60,321 bases of DNA. Source: Terriglobia bacterium (GTDB lineage Bacteria > Acidobacteriota > Terriglobia > UBA7540). A program made the position numbers and the translations under genes. A model generated the notes under the pieces. It was not told where the DNA came from. It saw only the letters and a list, made by a program, of their open reading frames with translations, and made no database searches. Where the stretch lies: assembly GCA_030041095.1 (NCBI GenBank), contig JASHON010000026.1, positions 1 through 60,321 of the forward strand. The letters run 5' to 3'. Shown one piece after another: positions 21,469 through 56,218 of this stretch; positions within the stretch are counted from its first letter, which is position 1; each line of letters begins with the position of its first letter.

Positions 21469-22266
21469 ATGCCCTACCGCCGGCCTAAACTGGGCCAACA
21501 CTTTCTCAGGGACGCACGTTTCTGCCAAAGGATCGCGGATTCACTGGCGATTCACCATGAGGAGCTGGTGATAGAGATTGGCGCGGGCGCGGGCGTTATG
21601 ACTCGCCTGCTCGCCGCGCGAGCGCGCTCACTCATAGCGATTGAAATTGATCAATCGCTGGCGGCAAAGTTGGAGTCCGAATTTGCAGGAACAGAAAACG
21701 TGCGAATCCTGCAACGGAACGTTCTGGAGCTTGACCTACACGCGCTGGTTGCGAGCCGCACGGCCGCAGGCTGCTATGTATTCGGCAATTTGCCCTATTA
21801 CATCACGTCGCCCATTCTTCATCATCTTTTCAACGCTCACGCATCAATCCGGCACATGACGCTGATGATGCAGCGGGAAGTAGCGGAACGTGTTTTAGCA
21901 AAGCCGTGCTCGCGCGCTTACGGCGTTCTCAGCGTGCTCACGCAGTGCTGGTCGAAGCCGGCGATCTTGCTCGCTGTTCCACGCGGGGCATTTTCTCCTG
22001 CCCCGCGTGTGGACTCCGCGCTCGTGGATTTTCCTATGTCCCAACATTTTCCGGAATGGGAGGATGAAAGGCATCGAGCTTTTCTCGATTTCGTCCAACA
22101 GTGCTTTCGGCTGAAGCGGAAAAGTCTCCTCAACAATCTTTCAGGCGGCATGGGCCGCGCGCGCACGGAGCGCGCTCTTGAAGCGCAAAACCTTGATGCC
22201 CGCGTGCGCGCCGAGCAGCTCAGCCTGGATCAACTCGCAACACTGTTCAGCAATATTTTCGATTAG
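21469..22266 (+). CDS. rsmA: 16S rRNA dimethyladenosine transferase (KsgA)
   Basis: The 265-residue protein has the KsgA start PKLGQHFLRD, the SAM-binding EIGAGAGVMT (residues 36-45), the catalytic FGNLPYYI (residues 105-112) and C-terminal FRLKRKSLLNNL. It dimethylates two adjacent adenines in helix 45 of 16S rRNA. ATG 21469 has the SD TGGAGGAAA; an earlier in-frame start at 21355 overlaps the divergent GMC gene. Its TAG stop overlaps the TAA of the convergent sulfatase-superfamily gene by four bases. Confidence 0.95.
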   Translation: MPYRRPKLGQHFLRDARFCQRIADSLAIHHEELVIEIGAGAGVMTRLLAARARSLIAIEIDQSLAAKLESEFAGTENVRILQRNVLELDLHALVASRTAAGCYVFGNLPYYITSPILHHLFNAHASIRHMTLMMQREVAERVLAKPCSRAYGVLSVLTQCWSKPAILLAVPRGAFSPAPRVDSALVDFPMSQHFPEWEDERHRAFLDFVQQCFRLKRKSLLNNLSGGMGRARTERALEAQNLDARVRAEQLSLDQLATLFSNIFD

Positions 22267-24566
22267 TGATAAGGGAGGCTACGAAGCAGGTTGCGCTCTG
22301 CGGGGCTGGGCCTGCTCAGCTTAGAGGGCTCCCGAGCGCTGAAATACGCTTGCGCCGTTCCCAGCGGCAATGGCTGTTTGTCCTGCGTGGGCCGGGACTC
22401 CTTCTGGCCGAAAAACCGTTGCGCGAAACTTTCACCCGGCCGGTCAAACGGGGAAAGGTACTGCGGGGCATGCCAGGGCAGCACGGAATATCCAATGCGC
22501 GCCTCGAGTTCGGCCTTCAGTCTTGCTGCTACCGCTGCTGCGCCGGGCTCACCACCCGCCTCAGATGCTTCGCGCGGATCCTTTTGCAGGTCATAGAGCT
22601 CAGCGCGACCGTTCGACCGCAGGATGTATTGCCAGTGGGATGTAGTCAGACTCAGTGATGTCTCGAGTGGGCCTCGGCCATTACGCGCGGCGAGCTCCGA
22701 GACCACAAGAAGGGGCGAGCGACGAGAAACCGGCGTTCTCGCTCTCGCGGAAGATCCCGTTTCAAATCTCGATTCCGGTGGCGAGTGGTTCGCTGCGTAT
22801 CTCGCGGTCGCCGCGTTAAAGAATCGCGCGAGGCTGGACTCGGCTAATGGTCCCTCGTTTCCGAGGGCAAAATTCAGCACGGTTGCAAACAACTGCCGGT
22901 TGCTGACGAGCTCCGGGACTTTCAGTCTTGCCGGAATGCCTCCACCTTCCATAATGAGCGGCACGCGCAGCACGTCCTGGTACAAATTCCAGCCATGATC
23001 GTAAGTGCCGTGCTCGCCGAAGCCTTCTCCATGATCGGAAGTCACGATGATGACCGTGTTCCGCATGCTTCCTGGTCTGCCGGCGTCCGTCACCTTCAAA
23101 GAATGGAATAAATCGCCAATCTCGTTGTCAAGATAGGAGAGGCTGTTATCGTATCCGTCGATCATCGCCTGGCGGTCGCGTGCGGTGTAAGGTTTGGCCG
23201 GGTAGCCGGCTTTGAGCGGCGCTTCCAAGCTTGGCAGCAGCACGTGGGGAATGGTCCCGAAGCGACGGTCATAAGGACTCGGCGGAAGATAGGGCCGGTG
23301 GGCATCCATGTAATTGATAAAGAGGAAATACGGCCGCTTTTTGCCGCGCGCTTGGCGGGTCCTTAGCGACGCATGCCAACGCATCACGTCGCGGTTTAAG
23401 TCGGCTGCGGTACGGTGATCGAACTGGTTGTAACGGATCAGGCGCTCGTACGCGGATCTCAAAACTGATTGGCCAATCCAAGTGGCATCAAGATTGTGCC
23501 GGACGGAGTAACTGTCGTCAATATAGACGTCAAAGCCTTCGTTCAATCGCCAGCCAGCCATACCATAGAAAGAGTTTGCGTTGAAACCCGCAGTCGCGTA
23601 GCCATGGGAGCGCAGGATTTCGGCGAGCGTCACTGGGCCGGGATCGATGGGCGCCTGCCAATCCGAGCCGTTCTGATGCGGCACGAGCCCGGTGAAAATG
23701 GAAGCGATTGAGGCGAGCGTCCACGAAGACGCGCTCAGCACGCTTTCAAAAAGGGCTCCGTGACGCGCCAGCCGGTCGAGATTGGGAGTGGTGGGCCGGG
23801 AATAGCCGTAGCAGGAAAGATGATCAGCCCGAACGGTGTCAAGGACGATAAGAATAATGTTGGGCCGGCGCGCAGTACTGGAAAGCAGCTTCCGATTCTC
23901 GAACTTTGCTGCATTTCTTTCAGGCCGCGCACCAGAGTTTTGCCCGTCAACCATCGATCCCGAGAGCCGGTCCACATACGGATACGGCGGATGAAATCTA
24001 TAAAACCCCACTGCACCGGCAAATGCGCACATGGCAATCAGAGCTGCGATCCGCCAGCGCAGGCGAGGCCACGCATTTTCGAATCTAAAAAAACTCGTCC
24101 CGCGCCGCGCGCGAAAGCTAAGAACGAGAAGTGACGCGATGGATACCGCCGCAAAGGATTCAACCCAGGTCAGAATTCCAGGCCTCGCCGGAAAGATAGT
24201 TCCCGCGCCAACCCTGAACCAATCGAGATTCCACGCCACGTAGGAACCGGCAAAGCCAAGCCCGGCAGCCACAACAGCAATCATGATGGATGAGCGGCGC
24301 TTGGAGGTCGGGCCCGTTCCCGCTGCAGCCAGACCAACCACTGCCATGATGCCGAGTACCAAGCCGGCGAGTCCGCCGAATATTCCGTCGACCAGCGGCG
24401 CAAGAAACAAGACAACGTATTGAACGTCGGGCTGCAGGAGGCCGGAGAAGCGAGGCAGAAAATAGAGCATGGCGCCCTCGAGAATGCCGGCTGCCACGCC
24501 GACCATGATCCCTGCCCATAAAAAGCGGGAAACGACGCTGCGACTTATTTGTTGTTTGCCACTCAC
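22263..24566 (-). CDS. Membrane-anchored sulfatase-superfamily enzyme with Thr at the nucleophile position
   Basis: The 767-residue protein has about five hydrophobic segments in residues 12-190, then a large alkaline-phosphatase/sulfatase-fold domain: PNIILIVLDTVRADHLSCYGYSRPTTPNLDRLA with metal ligands Asp243 and probably Asp248-His249, and SDHGEGFGEHGTYDHG later. The canonical C-x-P-x-R that is converted to formylglycine is absent. Aligning on FTGL puts Thr283 (SASSWTLASIAS) at that place and Ile at the Arg. A Thr nucleophile is used by lipoteichoic-acid synthases and phosphoethanolamine transferases, so a phospho-transferase or hydrolase role at the membrane is as likely as sulfate-ester cleavage. 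GTG start overlaps the murB stop (GTGA), implying coupled translation. Confidence 0.85.
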   Translation of the reverse strand: MSGKQQISRSVVSRFLWAGIMVGVAAGILEGAMLYFLPRFSGLLQPDVQYVVLFLAPLVDGIFGGLAGLVLGIMAVVGLAAAGTGPTSKRRSSIMIAVVAAGLGFAGSYVAWNLDWFRVGAGTIFPARPGILTWVESFAAVSIASLLVLSFRARRGTSFFRFENAWPRLRWRIAALIAMCAFAGAVGFYRFHPPYPYVDRLSGSMVDGQNSGARPERNAAKFENRKLLSSTARRPNIILIVLDTVRADHLSCYGYSRPTTPNLDRLARHGALFESVLSASSWTLASIASIFTGLVPHQNGSDWQAPIDPGPVTLAEILRSHGYATAGFNANSFYGMAGWRLNEGFDVYIDDSYSVRHNLDATWIGQSVLRSAYERLIRYNQFDHRTAADLNRDVMRWHASLRTRQARGKKRPYFLFINYMDAHRPYLPPSPYDRRFGTIPHVLLPSLEAPLKAGYPAKPYTARDRQAMIDGYDNSLSYLDNEIGDLFHSLKVTDAGRPGSMRNTVIIVTSDHGEGFGEHGTYDHGWNLYQDVLRVPLIMEGGGIPARLKVPELVSNRQLFATVLNFALGNEGPLAESSLARFFNAATARYAANHSPPESRFETGSSARARTPVSRRSPLLVVSELAARNGRGPLETSLSLTTSHWQYILRSNGRAELYDLQKDPREASEAGGEPGAAAVAARLKAELEARIGYSVLPWHAPQYLSPFDRPGESFAQRFFGQKESRPTQDKQPLPLGTAQAYFSAREPSKLSRPSPAERNLLRSLPYH

Positions 24567-25864
24567 GTCAGCGCCAGATATCCCTCCAACTCTTCAGGAG
24601 TGAACCCAACGAGCTCCGGCTCAACAGGTACGCGCATTCCCGTCCGGGAAAAGACCGTCTGGCGCACTTTCTGTGCTAACCGCATCACGTCATTCGCGGT
24701 AGCCCCGCCCCGGTTGAGCAGGACTAACGGCTGAGTTTCATTCACCATCGCGCCGCCCACTGAGCATCCTTTCAGGCCGCAAATTTCGATCATGAACGCC
24801 GTGGGAATCTTGATTCGCTCGCTGGCAGGCACGATGCCCGGCGCGCCGTTGGCTTCGCCACCCTCCTTCCCACAAGGCTGAGCAGTTGAAGAGACAGCCG
24901 AAAAACGTGTTCGTAGATCTCGCAGACGGTCCACTTCCCCTGCAGTGAAATCCCGCTGAATCCGGCTTTCGAGCTGCTCGACCTCTTCGCCCGTGAGCGC
25001 GAGATTTTTGAAGAAAGATCCCGCATTTCCCCCCTTCTCTTCACGCGGAAAAGGGAACTTGCCGTCACGGATGCTGATGATTGCGTTGCGCACCTGGCTA
25101 AGCGATGGCTCAGAGTTGCCAAACGAGGCGCGAAGGCCAGGGTAGCTGAGGTTGGGCCGGCCAAGCCTGCTTAGGCGGAGGGTGATGTTAAGGATGAAGT
25201 AAAAACCTTTATGCGTCGTATTGAAGATGCTCCTGCGGTAACCCATCCCACAGTCTTCTTTGCTGAGGGTTCTTACGTCGCCGGGTTGCGAGGGAGCCGT
25301 ACCTTCGTTGCTGCTCTTTGGCTCATTCCGGCGCAGTTCCGCCACTTCCGCTTTCTCAAGAACGTCACTGATCTGCTGGCCGTAAGCGCCGATATTCTGA
25401 ACGAGCGCTGCTCCTGCCTGCCCGGGAATGTGTGAGAGATTTTCAATGCCCCAAAGCCCACGGTCAACCGTCCACGCCACCAAGTCGTCCCAAGTCTCTC
25501 CAGCTTCCGCCCGCACCCATACTGTCTCCGGGTTTTCGCAAAGGATGGAGATTCCCTTCATGGCAGGGTGCAGAACCATCGCCTCGAGGCCGCGGTCGCT
25601 GATCAATACATTGCTGCCACCGCCCAGCACGAATGCTGGCAGGCGTTCAGCATCTGCAAAATCCAGAGCGAGGGTCAGCTCTTGAACGGAGTTGACGGGA
25701 GCCCAGTAGCGCGCTGGACCGCCAATCTTGAACGTGGTATACGGCTTGAGGACGTGCTGGCTTATGATGAAAGCGGGCCGCTGCAGCCCGGGATTCGGTT
25801 TGGCGGCTTTTCTTTTTTCGACGTTTGGTTCTCTCGGGTGGCTCTCAGAGCCTCGGACCGCCAT
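24563..25864 (-). CDS. murB: UDP-N-acetylenolpyruvoylglucosamine reductase (MurB), with extra segments
   Basis: The enzyme makes UDP-MurNAc, the second committed step of peptidoglycan synthesis. Visible signatures: TTFKIGGPARYW, VLGGGSNVLISDRG (FAD binding), GYRRSIF (catalytic region Arg), GGNAGSFFKN with the proton-donor Ser, and VEPELVGF with the C-terminal Glu. It is longer than usual (about 430 residues against 300-350), with a polar insert before GYRRSIF and another before the GCSVGGAMV segment. The start is uncertain: ATG 25864 was taken because the upstream frame would run over the divergent gene's start, but ATG 25960 or 26017 are possible and none has a good SD. Its stop overlaps the downstream gene's GTG. 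Confidence 0.9.
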   Translation of the reverse strand: MAVRGSESHPREPNVEKRKAAKPNPGLQRPAFIISQHVLKPYTTFKIGGPARYWAPVNSVQELTLALDFADAERLPAFVLGGGSNVLISDRGLEAMVLHPAMKGISILCENPETVWVRAEAGETWDDLVAWTVDRGLWGIENLSHIPGQAGAALVQNIGAYGQQISDVLEKAEVAELRRNEPKSSNEGTAPSQPGDVRTLSKEDCGMGYRRSIFNTTHKGFYFILNITLRLSRLGRPNLSYPGLRASFGNSEPSLSQVRNAIISIRDGKFPFPREEKGGNAGSFFKNLALTGEEVEQLESRIQRDFTAGEVDRLRDLRTRFSAVSSTAQPCGKEGGEANGAPGIVPASERIKIPTAFMIEICGLKGCSVGGAMVNETQPLVLLNRGGATANDVMRLAQKVRQTVFSRTGMRVPVEPELVGFTPEELEGYLALT

Positions 25865-29507: not shown

Positions 29508-32500
29508 GTGGAGTACGATTTCATCATGAAGAGTGAAACGCCGGGTTGCAACCCCGGCATTTCGCGACGGAACTTTTTAAGCTGGATCGCAGCGGCGCCC
29601 CCTGTTTTTCGGGCGGCGCGCCTGTTCCAACCTCCCAACACGCACAGCCAGAAAATGATTGAGGACGGCTCCGATCCTGAGAGCTCCGCCGGATCACTCG
29701 TTCGCTCCACGATCGTTTACCAGCCCCATTATCCGCTCCGGTCAGACCTGGACGCGATTATGGAGATGGTTGATCCAGAGCGCGACGTTTTCCCCATCGA
29801 GAAGCATGTTGCCCGAATCAAATCCGTTCTGACACTCTGGCGCGGGGTATTTCTTAGCCGTGATGTCTCTCCGATGCGCCGCTATCTTGGCTCATCATTT
29901 ACCGGCGGATCGTTCGAAAGCTATCGTGAGCGGCTGGTCCGGAGCAAACCCGGGGTGGAGATTCGCGCGCGCGAGTACAGCGGGAAAAATTCGCTGAGCG
30001 CAGATCGCTTCCTGGCTAAGGTTGCAGCTTGGATGCGATCGCCAGGCCCTATTACGGTGGCAGAATTTCAAGTGGGCGAAGCAGTGGTGATCGAGAACAG
30101 CCCGTTGCTCGTGAGGACCAAAGTGTCTTTCCGCTTGGCTGGGTCTGCCGGGTCCGGCGGCCACTTTCAGCGCGCCGGCGACTGGCAAATCGACTGGACG
30201 GAAGCCGGCGCAACTTTTAACGTAAGTGCTTGGCTGCCCTTGAAGGAAACTCTAAGCTACGCGCCCAAGCCTGCATTCGTCGAGATCACACAAAGTGCCC
30301 TCAACGGAGTGAGGTCCTATCGAGAGCAGTTCTTGCCCTCCATCACGGCCTGGCGTACGAGGCTCGACAGCACATTGGGGATGGACGTCTATGGCAACAC
30401 GGGTATTTCCGCAGGTGATTTTGACGGAGACGGGCTAGATGATCTTTACATTTGCCAGCCCTCGGGCTTGCCTAACCGGCTCTATCGAAATTGCGGAGAC
30501 GGGACGTTCGAGGACGTGACGGAAGCTGCGGGTGTCGCCGTACTGGACGACACGCCCTGCGCTCTTTTTGCGGACATCAACAATCGCGGTCGCCAGGACC
30601 TGGTTGTTGTGACCGCGACCAGCCCGCTGCTGTTTGTAAACCAGGGGAACGGCACGTTCCGCTTGAAGCCGGACGCGTTCCAATTTACCCAGCCGCCTCA
30701 AGGAACTTTTACCTGCGCTGCGATGGCCGATTACGACGGTGACGGCAGGCTCGACATCTATTTTTGCCTTTACAGCTACTATCGAGGTCTGGATCAATAT
30801 CAATATCCGTCGCCCTACTTTAATGCAAAAAATGGCCCGCCCAATTTTCTATTTCACAACGAAGGCGAGTGGGCGTTCCGGGACGTGACGGCGGAAACGG
30901 GAATGAGCCAGAACAATAATCGTTACAGCTTTGATTGCCATTGGTGCGACTTCGACGACGATGGATGGCCCGATCTTTATGTGGTCAACGACTTCGGCTC
31001 AAAGAACCTTTACTACAACAAGGGCCACGGGATTTTTACCGACATTGCCGAGTCCGCCGGCGTATTGGACATTGGACCCGGAATGAGTGGTTGCTGGTTC
31101 GACGCCAACAATGACGGACGCATGGACTTGTACGTCTCGGACATGTGGGAACCGGCGGGTATGCGCCTGAGCGCTCAGCCAGACTTCATGCCCCACGCGC
31201 CGGAAGCGGTGCGTGCGCTCTATCGCCGCCACGCTCGCGGCAACTCACTTTTTCTGGACGAAGGCAGCCGGCGATTCCGCGATGACACAGTCAGAGCAGG
31301 GGCAGAGCGCGCCGGCTGGTCATGGTCAAGCTTTGCCTGGGACTTCGACTACGACGGTCACGAGGATGTTTACGTCTGCACCGGCATGATTTCCGGTCCC
31401 GACCAATACAATCTGGACAGCTTCTTCTGGCGTCGCGTGGTAGCGCAATCGCCCATCACGGCGCGTTCATGGCGGCCATATGAGCTGGGCTGGAACGCCA
31501 TCAACGAGCTCATCCGCTCCGACGGCACCTGGGCAGGATACGAATCCAATGCATTTTATTGCAATCACGGAGATGGCACTTTTTCTGAAGTTGCAGGAGC
31601 CATAGGCATGGATTTCCTGGACGACAGCCGTGCGTTTGCCCTTGCCGACTTCGACCACGACGGGCGGCAAGAGGTCTTCCTCAAGAGCCGCACGAGCCCG
31701 CAAATTCGTTTGCTTCGAAACGCGATGGCAAACCCTGCTGAGGCGATTGCCTTTCACCTGCGGGGCGAGAGAAGTAACCGCGATGCAGTCGGGACCGTAG
31801 TGCGACTTAGGACCAATCTCGGAGAACAGGTGAAATTCGTGGAGTGCGGCGCCGGCTTCGCCTCCCAACATTCCCGTGAACTGTTCTTCGGTCTGGGCGA
31901 ATCTGCGGGACCCGTGGAAGCGGCGGTCCGCTGGCCGAGTGGTCTGATGCAGCATTTTGTGAACCTGCCGCGCGGATGCCGGGTCTTCATCCGAGAAAGC
32001 CAGGAGGGATTTCTCACTCGTCCCTTCGCCGAGCCACCCAAAATATGGCTCGAAAACCGCCCGAATGTGTCGCCGGAGCCGCTGCCCGTGCGCAGTGAAA
32101 CCTGGCTGGCCGCTCCTCTCGCAGCGCCGGATTTCATCCTTAACGATCAGCATGGCCGGCCGTTGCAGCTTGCCAAAGCCCGCGGAGTGCCCGTGTTGCT
32201 CTTGTTTTGGAGCATGGAATCCACAGATTCTCGCACGATGCTGGCAGACTTTCATCAGACTTTGGCCCGTAAGTCTTCCGCGCCACCGTTTTCGCTGGTG
32301 GCCGTCAGCCTCGACCGCCCGCCGGCCTCCAATCAGGTGAATCCGTTTGCCATTGGCAGTTCCTTTGCATTTCCCGTTGTGATTGCCACGGATGAAGTTG
32401 GCGGCGTCTATAACCTGCTCTTCCGTTATTTATTCGATCGCCATCGGAATCTGCCTCTGCCCGTGCTTTTCTTGCTCGACGGTGATGGAATGATCGTGAA

Positions 32501-33377
32501 AGTGAACCTCGGTTTATGGAAGGCCGAAGCGATGCTGGCCTCCCTATCACAAATTCCCAGAACCGCTGAAGAGCGCGGGAGAAAGGCCTTGCCGTTTCAG
32601 GGCAGAGCTTACGGCCTGGATTTCTCTCGCGATCACCTTACTCCAGCCATCGCTTTTGCCCAACACGGCTACGTTCAGACCGCGGAGAATGCGTTCTATG
32701 AGGCTCTCCGCCAGCGGCCTAACTCGTGGCTGGCCGAATACAGCCTGGGGACCCTCTATTTGAAGGACCAACAATGGGCCAACGCCCGCCAGCATCTGCT
32801 GCGGGCCCTGCAATTGAACCCCGACTACGGACTTTGCTTGACGAATCTTGGCGTGCTGTCTGCGCAATTGGGCGAATACAGAGAGGCGGAATCCTACTTC
32901 GACCGCGCGCTCGGCATTAACCCGATCGATACGCTCGCGCTACAGAACTTGGCGGAAGTTTACCGGGTCGAGCACCGTTGGAGCGATGCCGAACGGCTCT
33001 TGGCGCGCGCCATGCAGGTGGCTCCCAACAACGCGACGCTTAGCTACATTCTGGGCATGGTTTATGCTGACCAGGGTGACAAAGACCGTGCAGGCCAGTA
33101 TCTGGAGCAGGCACTCAAACTTCGCCCCGATTATCCACAGGCGCTCAATAATCTTGGCGTCATCGAAATTCTGAACGGTCAACCGAGCGCGGCTCGCCAA
33201 GATTTCGAGCGATGTCTCCGCATCGATCCCGGATTCGATCAGCCTTACGTCAACCTCGCACGAATGGACGCTTTGGCTGGCAGGCGAGGCGAGGCTGTAG
33301 CCTTACTAAAAGAACTTTTGAAGCGGCAGCCCGATCATGCCGTCGCACGACAACTGCTGCGCGAGCTGCAGCGTTAA
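29508..33377 (+). CDS. Giant exported FG-GAP/UnbV, thioredoxin-like and TPR fusion protein
   Basis: At 1289 residues this is the largest gene of the window. In order: a twin-arginine-type signal (SRRNFLSWIAAAPPVF, residues 20-35); an unassigned alpha/beta domain (about 60-260); FG-GAP/VCBS calcium-binding repeats from about 300 (DFDGDGLDDLYI, DYDGDGRLDIYF, DFDDDGWPDLYV, DANNDGRMDLYV, DFDHDGRQEVFL) to about 730; an ASPIC/UnbV segment (about 750-820); a redoxin-like domain (about 870-1015) without a CxxC pair (WSMESTDS in its place); and TPR repeats (about 1045-1285). CRTAC1-like proteins with TPRs occur in Acidobacteriota. A periplasmic or surface scaffold role is inference. GTG 29508 or ATG 29526 may be the start. 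A TPR gene follows after 7 bases. Confidence 0.88.
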   Translation: MEYDFIMKSETPGCNPGISRRNFLSWIAAAPPVFRAARLFQPPNTHSQKMIEDGSDPESSAGSLVRSTIVYQPHYPLRSDLDAIMEMVDPERDVFPIEKHVARIKSVLTLWRGVFLSRDVSPMRRYLGSSFTGGSFESYRERLVRSKPGVEIRAREYSGKNSLSADRFLAKVAAWMRSPGPITVAEFQVGEAVVIENSPLLVRTKVSFRLAGSAGSGGHFQRAGDWQIDWTEAGATFNVSAWLPLKETLSYAPKPAFVEITQSALNGVRSYREQFLPSITAWRTRLDSTLGMDVYGNTGISAGDFDGDGLDDLYICQPSGLPNRLYRNCGDGTFEDVTEAAGVAVLDDTPCALFADINNRGRQDLVVVTATSPLLFVNQGNGTFRLKPDAFQFTQPPQGTFTCAAMADYDGDGRLDIYFCLYSYYRGLDQYQYPSPYFNAKNGPPNFLFHNEGEWAFRDVTAETGMSQNNNRYSFDCHWCDFDDDGWPDLYVVNDFGSKNLYYNKGHGIFTDIAESAGVLDIGPGMSGCWFDANNDGRMDLYVSDMWEPAGMRLSAQPDFMPHAPEAVRALYRRHARGNSLFLDEGSRRFRDDTVRAGAERAGWSWSSFAWDFDYDGHEDVYVCTGMISGPDQYNLDSFFWRRVVAQSPITARSWRPYELGWNAINELIRSDGTWAGYESNAFYCNHGDGTFSEVAGAIGMDFLDDSRAFALADFDHDGRQEVFLKSRTSPQIRLLRNAMANPAEAIAFHLRGERSNRDAVGTVVRLRTNLGEQVKFVECGAGFASQHSRELFFGLGESAGPVEAAVRWPSGLMQHFVNLPRGCRVFIRESQEGFLTRPFAEPPKIWLENRPNVSPEPLPVRSETWLAAPLAAPDFILNDQHGRPLQLAKARGVPVLLLFWSMESTDSRTMLADFHQTLARKSSAPPFSLVAVSLDRPPASNQVNPFAIGSSFAFPVVIATDEVGGVYNLLFRYLFDRHRNLPLPVLFLLDGDGMIVKVNLGLWKAEAMLASLSQIPRTAEERGRKALPFQGRAYGLDFSRDHLTPAIAFAQHGYVQTAENAFYEALRQRPNSWLAEYSLGTLYLKDQQWANARQHLLRALQLNPDYGLCLTNLGVLSAQLGEYREAESYFDRALGINPIDTLALQNLAEVYRVEHRWSDAERLLARAMQVAPNNATLSYILGMVYADQGDKDRAGQYLEQALKLRPDYPQALNNLGVIEILNGQPSAARQDFERCLRIDPGFDQPYVNLARMDALAGRRGEAVALLKELLKRQPDHAVARQLLRELQR

Positions 33378-53695: not shown

Positions 53696-56218
53696 TCATT
53701 CAATCCTCAATGCCTGCATCGGGTCAATCGAGGCGGCGCGCCGGGCAGGCACCACAGCAGCCGCTATGGCGCATCCGGCCAGAACACATACTGCCAACGC
53801 CAAAATAAGGGGATTATAGCTCTTGACGCCGTAAAGCAGGGTTGCCATCAACCTTCCGCCGGCGAGCGTCACCGGAATTCCTATTGCAAGTCCGACGCCC
53901 ACTTGAAACAGTGCGTCGCGCAGAATAAGCCACAAGACGTTCGCACGATTCGCGCCCAGTGCCATGCGTAAACCGATTTCGCCCCTGCGCCGCGCCACGA
54001 AGTACGAAGTGACTCCATACAACCCAACGCAGGCTAGGATTAGCGCAAGCAGCCCGAAAAGCTCCGTGAGCCGTGCGACCAGTTCATCCTGATTGAAATT
54101 CCGGTCGAGCTGCTCCTGCAGGGTCACCATTTCGAGCACCGTAAGATTGGGGTTGATGTTGGCCAGCGCGCGGCGAATGGCGGCCTCGAGATTTTCCGGC
54201 CGGCCGGCCACCCTTAACTCGATGTCGCCAATGTATTGCGAGCTTGCGAGCCAGTAGAGCTTGGGATCGTTCGTGGTTTGCAGGAACGGCAGGAAAAATG
54301 TGGGATAGGCAGGCGCGCGGGCGTCCTGATATTTTGCATCTTGAACGATGCCCACAATCTCAAAATCGCCCGCATGGCTTTCACCTCCGATGCCAAAGTG
54401 CTGGCCGATGGGATCTTGCTTGGGGAAGAATTTCTTGGCAAAGGCTTGATTGATCACAACGACTCTTTGCGACGCCGGCGTATCCTCAGCATTGATGGCG
54501 CGTCCGCGCAGCAATCGCGTGCCGATGGTTTGGAAATAATGCGGCCCGACGCGATCGAAAGAAGCGCCATCGCGTTCTTCAGGCGGCCGGCCTTCAATGT
54601 GGATGCTGTAGCCCCAGTTGTCGCCACGCATGGGGCTGTAAAGCGAGTAGCTGGCGTCGAGCACGCCGGGAATGCGGGGAAGCTGATCCTGAAGCTGTTG
54701 ATAAAGTCCATAGAGCTGATCGGGTTTGTATCCGGCCAGCGCCGGATCTACCCTCACAATCAGCCGCCCGCGGGCGTCGAAGCCGAAGTTCTGATTCTCG
54801 ATGTTCCGCAGGCTTTGAGTCAGCAGGCCGGCGCCGACGAGCAGCGCAATGGAAAGCGCAACTTGCAGAACTACAAGCGACTTCTGTGGCACCGACGTTC
54901 GGTCGCGCGCGGAGCGGCCGGCCCCGTGCAGAGCGTCAGCGGGCTGGGAGTGCGAAGCCACCCACGCCGGCGCCGTTCCGAACAAGACACCGGTCGCCAG
55001 CGAAACCAGGAAAGCGAACCCCAGCACCGTAAGAGAAGGCGTGGCGCTGATGGGAACGAAGCGAGCGCCGCGAAAAGCGACCAACAAAATAGCACGAGCG
55101 GCAACGAAAGCCACTGCGAGTCCCGAGAGGCCGCCGAGGATTGCGAAGACCACGCTCTCGGTAATCACCTGGCGGACGAGCCTCACTCGCGATGCGCCGA
55201 GGGCCAGACGGATGGCAGTGTCCGCGCGAGAGGCTGCGCCGCGCGCCAGGAATAGATTGCCGATATTGGCGCAAGCGATCAGCAGCACGAATGCCGCGAC
55301 AATCACCAGCAGGCGAAGGCCCGATTCTGTCTGGCTCTGCATGTCAGTGACGCCTGCGCCGCCCGGCGCGATGATAATCCGCTGCTTGGGAACTTGTGAG
55401 CGGTCGAAAGCCGTGAGATCAGGCTGTGCGCCGAGCCATCTCTGCAGCTCGAGCGTCACTTCTGCCTGGACCCGTGCAGGCCACGCGCCTGGTTTCAACC
55501 GTCCGATCACATGCAGCCAATGGGCGTCCGCGTGGTTGAGGAGCTCATTCTGCCCGTCCAACGCAGGCTCGGTGGAGAGCGGCAGCCAGAAATCCGGCGG
55601 ATCGGGCCGCAACGTGTCACCGAAAAATCCCGGCGGGGCAATTCCCACTACGGTGTACGGCATCGTGTTGATGACGAATGTGGCGCCGATAACAGAAGGA
55701 TCGTGGCCGAAATGTTCTTCCCATGCGCGGTAGCTCATCACCGCGGCGGGCGGGGCGCCCGGCCGGTCGTCTGCAGGCGTTATCATCCTTCCTGCAAAAG
55801 AGTTGATGCCGAACATGGAGAAGTAATTGCCTGAAACGAACTCTCCCAGATATGCTTGCGGCAGGCCGGAGGACGAGCTGCGGCGCACGCTGAGGTTGGG
55901 CAATGCAGCTTGAAATGCGGCCATCTGGCTGAATTGAGCTGTGTGATCGCGGAATTGCTTGTAAAGAGCGGTGGAATATAGATCCCAACTACCCTGCATT
56001 CCGCTTAGCACGCAGCAGTTGTTGGCATTGCCGATGCGATAGAGTTGTCCCGGATCAGCCACCGGAAGGCTTTTGAGGAGCACTGCGTTGACCAGAGTGA
56101 AAATGGCGGTGTTCGCGCCAATTCCCAGCGCCAGAGTGACGATGCAAACGACGGCGAAGCCGGGCGAAAGTCGCAGGCGGCGGAAAGCGTAACGAAGATC
56201 CTGCAGAAGTGCAGACAT
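53696..56218 (-). CDS. ADOP-type ABC transporter permease (duplicated MacB/FtsX-like)
   Basis: The 840-residue protein has [56 protein letters not shown] at the N-terminus, a large MacB-type periplasmic domain, three membrane segments around residues 300-430 (FtsX domain), a second FtsX-like membrane segment and periplasmic domain, and three more segments at the C-terminus ending with [18 protein letters not shown]. This eight-segment duplicated form is expanded in Acidobacteriota and usually sits behind a PadR regulator, as here. No ATPase gene is adjacent. It may export a small molecule or act mechanically on an envelope partner; the substrate is unknown. Confidence 0.9.

Follow-up and report, generated by a model that had tools for sequence, protein, structure and literature searches.

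Threonine at the nucleophile position of PF00884 proteins is already known as a phenomenon. In the excerpted part of a classification of sulfatases (PMC5066984), 30 of the 59 seed sequences of this family hold Thr in place of Cys or Ser. According to the same excerpts, a Thr at this site would yield a ketone upon oxidation and not formylglycine, and proteins with a TxNxE motif are not to be counted as functional sulfatases without experiment. Many proteins are named "sulfatase" from their match to PF00884, though they are unable to carry formylglycine. In MCR-1, as described in excerpts of the corresponding report (PMC5031297), zinc is held by Glu246, phospho-Thr285, Asp465, and His466, with His395 and His478 nearby, and the threonine is phosphorylated in the crystal.

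The Thr-type protein described here is encoded beside murB in a stretch of 60,321 nucleotides (contig JASHON010000026.1 of assembly GCA_030041095.1, from a Terriglobia bacterium), hereafter the window. The host is a soil acidobacterium, whose genome of 4.88 Mb in 207 contigs is 95.5% complete, the window being its contig 4. The enzyme appears to be a variant, so far unstudied, of an established type of enzyme, set in a murB and pentofuranose-lipid context; none of the titles and abstracts listed in a literature search dealt with its LPY[HQ] subfamily or with its pairing with murB.

The murB–enzyme gene pair

The features of the locus are collected in Table 1. The window MurB scores above the equivalog cut-off of TIGR00179 (197.6 versus 144.5 bits), with both PF02873 and PF01565 over their cut-offs in a Pfam scan, and the enzyme scores above the gathering cut-off of PF00884 (152.1 versus 25 bits).

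Table 1. Coordinates of the murB–enzyme pair and of the proposed functional residues in the window
Feature	Positions	Strand	Evidence
murB, UDP-N-acetylenolpyruvoylglucosamine reductase, 433 aa	24563..25864	-	ATG start, family profiles
Thr-type sulfatase-fold (PF00884) membrane protein, 767 aa	22263..24566	-	GTG start, Pfam, model
GTGA, murB stop TGA sharing bases with the enzyme GTG start	24563..24566	-	
Five predicted N-terminal membrane segments, residues 11–191	23994..24536	-	hydropathy, charge count, model helices
PF00884 catalytic domain, residues 235–567	22866..23864	-	Pfam
Asp243 codon, proposed metal ligand (EptA Glu244; common to C-type sulfatases)	23838..23840	-	
Thr283 codon, proposed nucleophile (Cys in CxPxR sulfatases)	23718..23720	-	
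His423 codon (pairs with EptA His385; common to C-type sulfatases)	23298..23300	-	
Asp511-His512 codons, proposed metal ligands (EptA Asp455-His456; mostly common to C-type sulfatases)	23031..23036	-	
His524 codon (EptA His468; Lys in C-type sulfatases)	22995..22997	-	
C-terminal LPYH, motif of the close subfamily	22266..22277	-	

The GTGA junction between both genes, the starting point of the original prediction, is present as claimed. The coupling that was deduced from it is possible for the window and for one relative with a four-base overlap (G014, ATGA), but is not a general feature, because three of the five genomes with the enzyme next to murB show gaps instead of an overlap (approximately 91–237 bp, varying with the start chosen). 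The GTG is the putative start of the enzyme; no well-placed Shine-Dalgarno sequence was seen by eye upstream of it. A promoter and terminator scan gave 4 promoter-like signals versus 1.1 expected and 7 terminator-like signals versus 5.5, none of which was used, and a phage collection returned 12 records (5 of them listed), whose partial matches stay below 60% identity and in no case span more than 80% of the query.

At its other end, the enzyme gene (minus strand, ending at 22263) converges with a gene named by eye as rsmA/ksgA-like (plus strand, ending at 22266), and the stop codons of both genes overlap. The window MurB, for its part, is longer than many of the ORFs of its relatives (approximately 365–380 residues, some longer), whose matches are interrupted near residues 323–347, where the window protein probably holds an insert.

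Active site, topology, and fold of the enzyme

In the site region of the enzyme, SWTLASIASIFTG, Thr283 heads an eleven-residue stretch that closes with TG; in CxPSRxxxxTG, this first position is a Cys. TLASI is found at this position and no CxPxR, nor the (C/S)xPxR pattern of the S1 and S1_0 enzymes, is present at the active site, in agreement with the earlier claim that the formylglycine motif is missing. The assignment of Thr283 to the nucleophile position, made originally from a shared short motif, is likewise upheld by two alignments: it falls in the Cys column when aligned with CxPxR sulfatases (MAFFT), and it pairs with Thr282 of Escherichia coli EptA (hhalign, probability 97.2%). The latter alignment also pairs Asp243 with Glu244, His423 with His385, Asp511 with Asp455, His512 with His456, and His524 with His468. 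As read from this alignment, the enzyme holds the Thr nucleophile, the acidic, Asp, and His ligands, and the two additional His residues of EptA and MCR, with Asp in place of Glu at the first ligand. Asp243, Thr283, His423, Asp511, His512, and His524 are invariant in 19/19 close homologues. In addition, 17 of these 19 end in LPY[HQ], and among 2566 ORFs of at least 150 residues, this end is found in 20, all of them the Thr-type enzyme; it could act as a localisation or interaction signal.

The distribution of residues at these positions separates the enzyme from the sulfatases. At position 283, the 149 sulfatase-like ORFs in the fetched loci (counted with duplicates) show T in 137, S in 5, and C in 2 (one protein present in two loci), with 5 unaligned. 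After removal of most duplicates, 139 of 153 rows hold letters at both 283 and 524 (133 T/H, 5 S/H, and 1 C/K), the window protein being counted twice. As this set was gathered by similarity to the query, a control set was fetched with a choline-sulfatase model (32 ORFs from 30 loci, MAFFT-aligned to the query). It comprises 23 C/K rows, 8 T/H rows (two of them close homologues already in the earlier counts), one fragment without position 283, and no mixed row. The 23 C-type rows also hold Asp or Glu at 243, His at 423, Asp at 511, and His at 512 (Asn in two); only positions 283 and 524 discriminate the two types, and His423 does not. The pairing of Thr283/His524 versus Cys/Lys, with no mixed case in the 31 control rows that have both letters, offers a simple rule to separate probable phospho-enzymes from sulfatases.

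The same genome encodes a second Thr-type sulfatase-fold protein (L066; G000:C6:7625-9745), whose C-terminal part resembles the tetratricopeptide repeat part of another protein of the window. The latter (29508–33377, 1289 aa) was named by eye from its sequence, and holds FG-GAP/ASPIC-like repeats, a redoxin-like part, and tetratricopeptide repeats.

A tree of 39 rows groups all 11 C-type rows in a single clade (100/98), with the window enzyme outside. It gives no single clade for the T rows (5 changes, of which at least 3 are forced); three S rows are scattered between these, and the placement of EptA is weak, on a long branch. The separate C-type clade and the clean split at positions 283 and 524 make a decayed sulfatase unlikely, as do the invariance of the site residues and the predominance of Thr across the wider set. 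A working sulfatase with Thr in place of formylglycine would be compatible with the overall fold, with an SGSH_C match in the C-terminal part of the enzyme (best over residues 652–689), and with the several site residues common to C-type sulfatases. This reading was nevertheless rejected, and its probability is close to nil, given the absence of CxPxR, the His instead of Lys at 524, the exclusion of the enzyme from the C-type clade, and the ketone expected from a Thr, as reported in the excerpts of PMC5066984.

Five N-terminal membrane segments had also been predicted, and this number is matched by five hydropathy peaks (residues 11–29, 62–80, 93–111, 131–149, and 173–191) and by five long N-terminal helices in an AlphaFold2 model built with 19 sequences (pLDDT 76.7, pTM 0.79), whose confidence falls below 50 at residues 517–520, beside the active site. 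The K+R counts of the loops are 3, 1, 3, 2, and 7 from the inside, alternating in and out, and, by the positive-inside rule, the catalytic domain is predicted to face the periplasm. This predicted topology, with five N-terminal helices and the catalytic domain outside, is that of EptA and MCR.

The body of the domain is sulfatase-like, with two discriminating site residues that are EptA-like. S1 sulfatases and phosphonate monoester hydrolases make up most of the best 50 fold matches of the model, which range from Z 37.7 to 30.7. EptA, MCR, and LtaS are not among these 50, an absence that excludes nothing, and a sequence search of solved chains hits phosphoethanolamine transferases and MCR chains (6bne, E 5.4e-10). 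Phosphonate monoester hydrolases/phosphodiesterases 2vqr, 2w8s, and 4uph, included in the fold matches listed, are consistent with the main rival of a transferase, in which the same phospho-threonine chemistry would have water as the acceptor. The protein would then trim an envelope lipid or glycan in the periplasm, as a phosphatase or phosphodiesterase. Mg-dependent phosphatase activity has been reported for YejM, which is a membrane relative of the Thr type (excerpts of PMC7576196). However, His524 fits the phosphoethanolamine-transferase pattern, this position being Lys in 23/23 C-type controls, and hydrolysis is regarded as rather unlikely, although it is weighted slightly higher because His423 does not discriminate.

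PbgA/YejM is also found among the fold matches listed: 6xlp, with Z 32.0, is aligned from model residue 1 over 493 residues, but with an rmsd of 15.1, and the periplasmic domain 6vat has Z 31.5 and 3.0 Å over 326. The former match would suit a membrane protein that acts as a regulator or binds lipid without being catalytic, like LapC/YejM/PbgA. Such a role is improbable, as the site residues are invariant in the close homologues, whereas E. coli LapC has Gly450/Arg451 opposite Asp511/His512, and as the enzyme reaches 23 of 825 bits with the LapC model.

Gene neighbourhood of the enzyme in the Acidobacteriota

In a family set of 39 genomes, a close enzyme (called at E ≤1e-50) is found in 19, and a murB match (E ≤1e-20) in 27, one of which (G035) holds a fragment only; 12 genomes hold both. 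In five of these 12 (the source genome, G014, G010, G029, and G023), which span three genera, the enzyme gene immediately follows murB and shares its strand. Four genes separate them, on the same strand, in G031, and the remaining six genomes have the two on separate contigs, of which some are short. An adjacency unique to this genome is thereby ruled out, and its recurrence, proposed as a check of the original prediction, is seen in this family; neither of the outcomes named as refuting that prediction was encountered.

The adjacency could still be functionally meaningless, whatever the reading of the enzyme itself, and reflect either shared descent or a frequent landing site for envelope genes. 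In favour of this explanation, which is possible but falls somewhat short of an even chance, both genes are not adjacent in 7 of the 12 genomes, they overlap in two genomes only, other relatives have other genes after murB, and 77 fetched loci contain no murB ORF except in two loci that are G014 and G029 again. By contrast, two separate subclades preserve both the order and the strand of the pair, and the surrounding genes of the window (ORFs of at least 150 residues) have no match at three of four relatives' loci (L036, L040, and L046) and one partial match at the fourth (L041, to the window ORF 53696–56218). In a further 68 loci (L079–L146; 67 more distant, plus the close homologue L089), murB, DprE1, UbiA, and YfhO-like neighbours were not found at the limits used, and the matches comprise one weak DprE2/SDR, two weak ligases, and two weak transporters.

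Regarding the nature of this context, the presence of murB had been read as a link to peptidoglycan and, from there, to the modification of an envelope polymer or lipid carrier. Nothing beyond murB sustains the first part: no other mur gene is present among the identified neighbours of the enzyme and murB (10 by Pfam, others by similarity), and murB is frequently preceded by an acyl-CoA ligase gene in relatives, so that a peptidoglycan cluster was rejected. As for the second part, we still infer that the enzyme modifies an envelope polymer or lipid, with a lipid carrier as a mere candidate.

The acyl-CoA ligase (PF00501) upstream of murB, found in many relatives, is preceded in several by a transporter. 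Downstream of murB, other relatives hold a lactate permease, UbiA, a DprE1-like oxidase (PF01565 and PF04030), a DprE2-like dehydrogenase (PF00106), and a YfhO-like protein, named from 32.0 and 33.1 bits versus a cut-off of 28.5 in two proteins, a third (L158) being without a Pfam match. In 20 fetched murB loci, the ligase is directly upstream in at least 8 and the lactate permease directly downstream in at least 7, both counts being lower bounds, with two loci without a murB ORF kept by the ORF picking. UbiA, DprE1, and DprE2 are presumably pentofuranose-lipid enzymes, as judged from their Pfam matches and from what is known of these families. The order murB, lactate permease, UbiA, DprE1 (and DprE2) occurs in L166 (G031:C23, 1814–8076), L158 (G034), L153 (G003), and L155 (G016). 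Judged by gene content, the loci where murB is followed by UbiA, DprE1, and in some cases DprE2 are a gene set of the polyprenyl-phospho-pentofuranose type joined to murB in the Acidobacteriota, the pathway of these enzymes being that described in excerpts of PMC11127046.

The enzyme is itself found within this block. In G031, the lactate permease, UbiA, DprE1, and DprE2 are the four genes between murB and the enzyme; the orders DprE2–enzyme–YfhO-like, ligase–permease–enzyme–YfhO-like, enzyme–YfhO-like, and transporter–ligase–enzyme are found in G035, G007, G036, and G025, respectively, and G034 holds the block without a close enzyme. By hand count, 10 of 25 enzyme places with examined flanks have murB or another block gene as a neighbour, and the other 15 have varied neighbours. 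These 25 are drawn from 26 places, G062, with a DprE1 match on the same contig as the enzyme, being left out; G030 is not among the 10, its DprE1 and UbiA lying approximately 4 kb away beyond other genes. Because the 10 block-linked enzymes fall in separate subclades of the tree (the window enzyme with G014; G010, G023, and G029 with G025; G031, G035, and G036; and G007), the simplest interpretation of the gene order is that the enzyme sat in the block ancestrally. Thus, murB probably stays beside the enzyme through descent from a larger envelope block, and not through an action of the enzyme on peptidoglycan precursors. The shared block of murB, acyl-CoA ligase, and pentofuranose-lipid enzymes offers a concrete envelope context in which to search for the substrate in the Acidobacteriota.

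A strict dependence of the enzyme on DprE1 is not supported, as DprE1 is matched in 12 of the 39 genomes (8/19 with the enzyme versus 4/20 without) and in neither the source genome nor the other four with the enzyme next to murB. Since DprE1 was not matched in any of the five, and no such neighbours, one weak SDR match apart, were found in L079–L146, the enzyme does not appear to need the pentofuranose-lipid pathway everywhere. In the source genome, an acyl-CoA ligase is encoded on another contig, and a search for the YfhO-like protein gave no match at 1e-5, which shows little, as it had no positive control. A more specific proposal, of low probability, is that the Thr-type enzyme would represent the decorating step of an as yet unrecognised envelope-glycan pathway on polyprenyl-phospho-pentofuranose carriers (UbiA, DprE1, DprE2, and the YfhO-like protein), adding a phospholipid-derived phospho group to the glycan or to its lipid carrier; in lineages where DprE1 was not found, like that of the window, it would have stayed next to murB and turned to a different acceptor in the envelope.

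Proposed mechanism and comparison with known systems

The preferred reading, with a probability of roughly 55%, is that of an enzyme in the alkaline phosphatase/sulfatase superfamily that is anchored in the membrane and whose periplasmic domain would transfer a phospho group through phospho-Thr283 to an envelope glycolipid or glycan. By analogy with EptA, MCR, and LtaS, on which the metal, the phospho-threonine chemistry, the direction of transfer, the donor, and the acceptor are modelled, Asp243, Asp511, and His512 would bind a divalent metal that activates Thr283. The attack of this Thr on a phospho-substrate, probably the head group of a phospholipid, would give a phospho-threonine intermediate. 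The phospho group would afterwards be handed to the envelope glycolipid or glycan, a step in which His524 and His423 would help, as proposed for EptA and MCR-1.

The original prediction likened the enzyme to lipoteichoic acid synthases and phosphoethanolamine transferases. This likeness holds for the Thr and for an EptA-like set of residues, but not for membership by curated cut-offs, nor for the C-terminal part and the nearest solved folds among the matches listed, which are of the sulfatase and phosphonate monoester hydrolase kind. EptA and MCR-1 share with the enzyme the position of the Thr nucleophile, the Asp/Glu-Thr-Asp-His set, the two further His residues, an identical spacing of 12 residues between the metal His and the last His (H512 to H524), and the predicted five N-terminal membrane helices with an outward catalytic domain. 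They differ from it in the Glu replaced by Asp243, in its length of 767 residues, in its sulfatase-like C-terminal part, and in its LPYH end, and the NCBIfam models for phosphoethanolamine transferases (domain or equivalog) give at best 55.2 of 500 bits, far below the cut-off.

LtaS, which we take to carry the TxNxE motif at its nucleophile, has no chain under its name among the matches listed in the searches with the enzyme. Like the enzyme, LtaS and the phosphoglycerol transferases are membrane proteins of the same superfamily with an extracellular Thr-type domain (excerpts of PMC7576196), but the window enzyme holds TLASI from the Thr onwards and not TxNxE, a motif taken from the excerpts of PMC5066984.

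On the other hand, S1 sulfatases and S1_0 phosphonate monoester hydrolases hold the closest folds among the matches listed (Z up to 37.7), belong to PF00884, and have an SGSH_C-type segment, with Asp243, His423, Asp511, and His512 common to most C-type controls. The window enzyme differs from them in having Thr for Cys/formylglycine and His for Lys at 524, in its predicted membrane anchor, and in its place outside the C-type clade. YejM/PbgA/LapC also combine five membrane helices with a sulfatase-fold periplasmic domain bearing a site Thr (excerpts of PMC7576196); in E. coli LapC, however, the Asp511/His512 pair is replaced by the two residues given above (hhalign, read by eye), and the score with the LapC model, NF038282, lies below its cut-off. 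Taken together, the enzyme may work like EptA or LtaS, though it is not a member of either group by the curated cut-offs.
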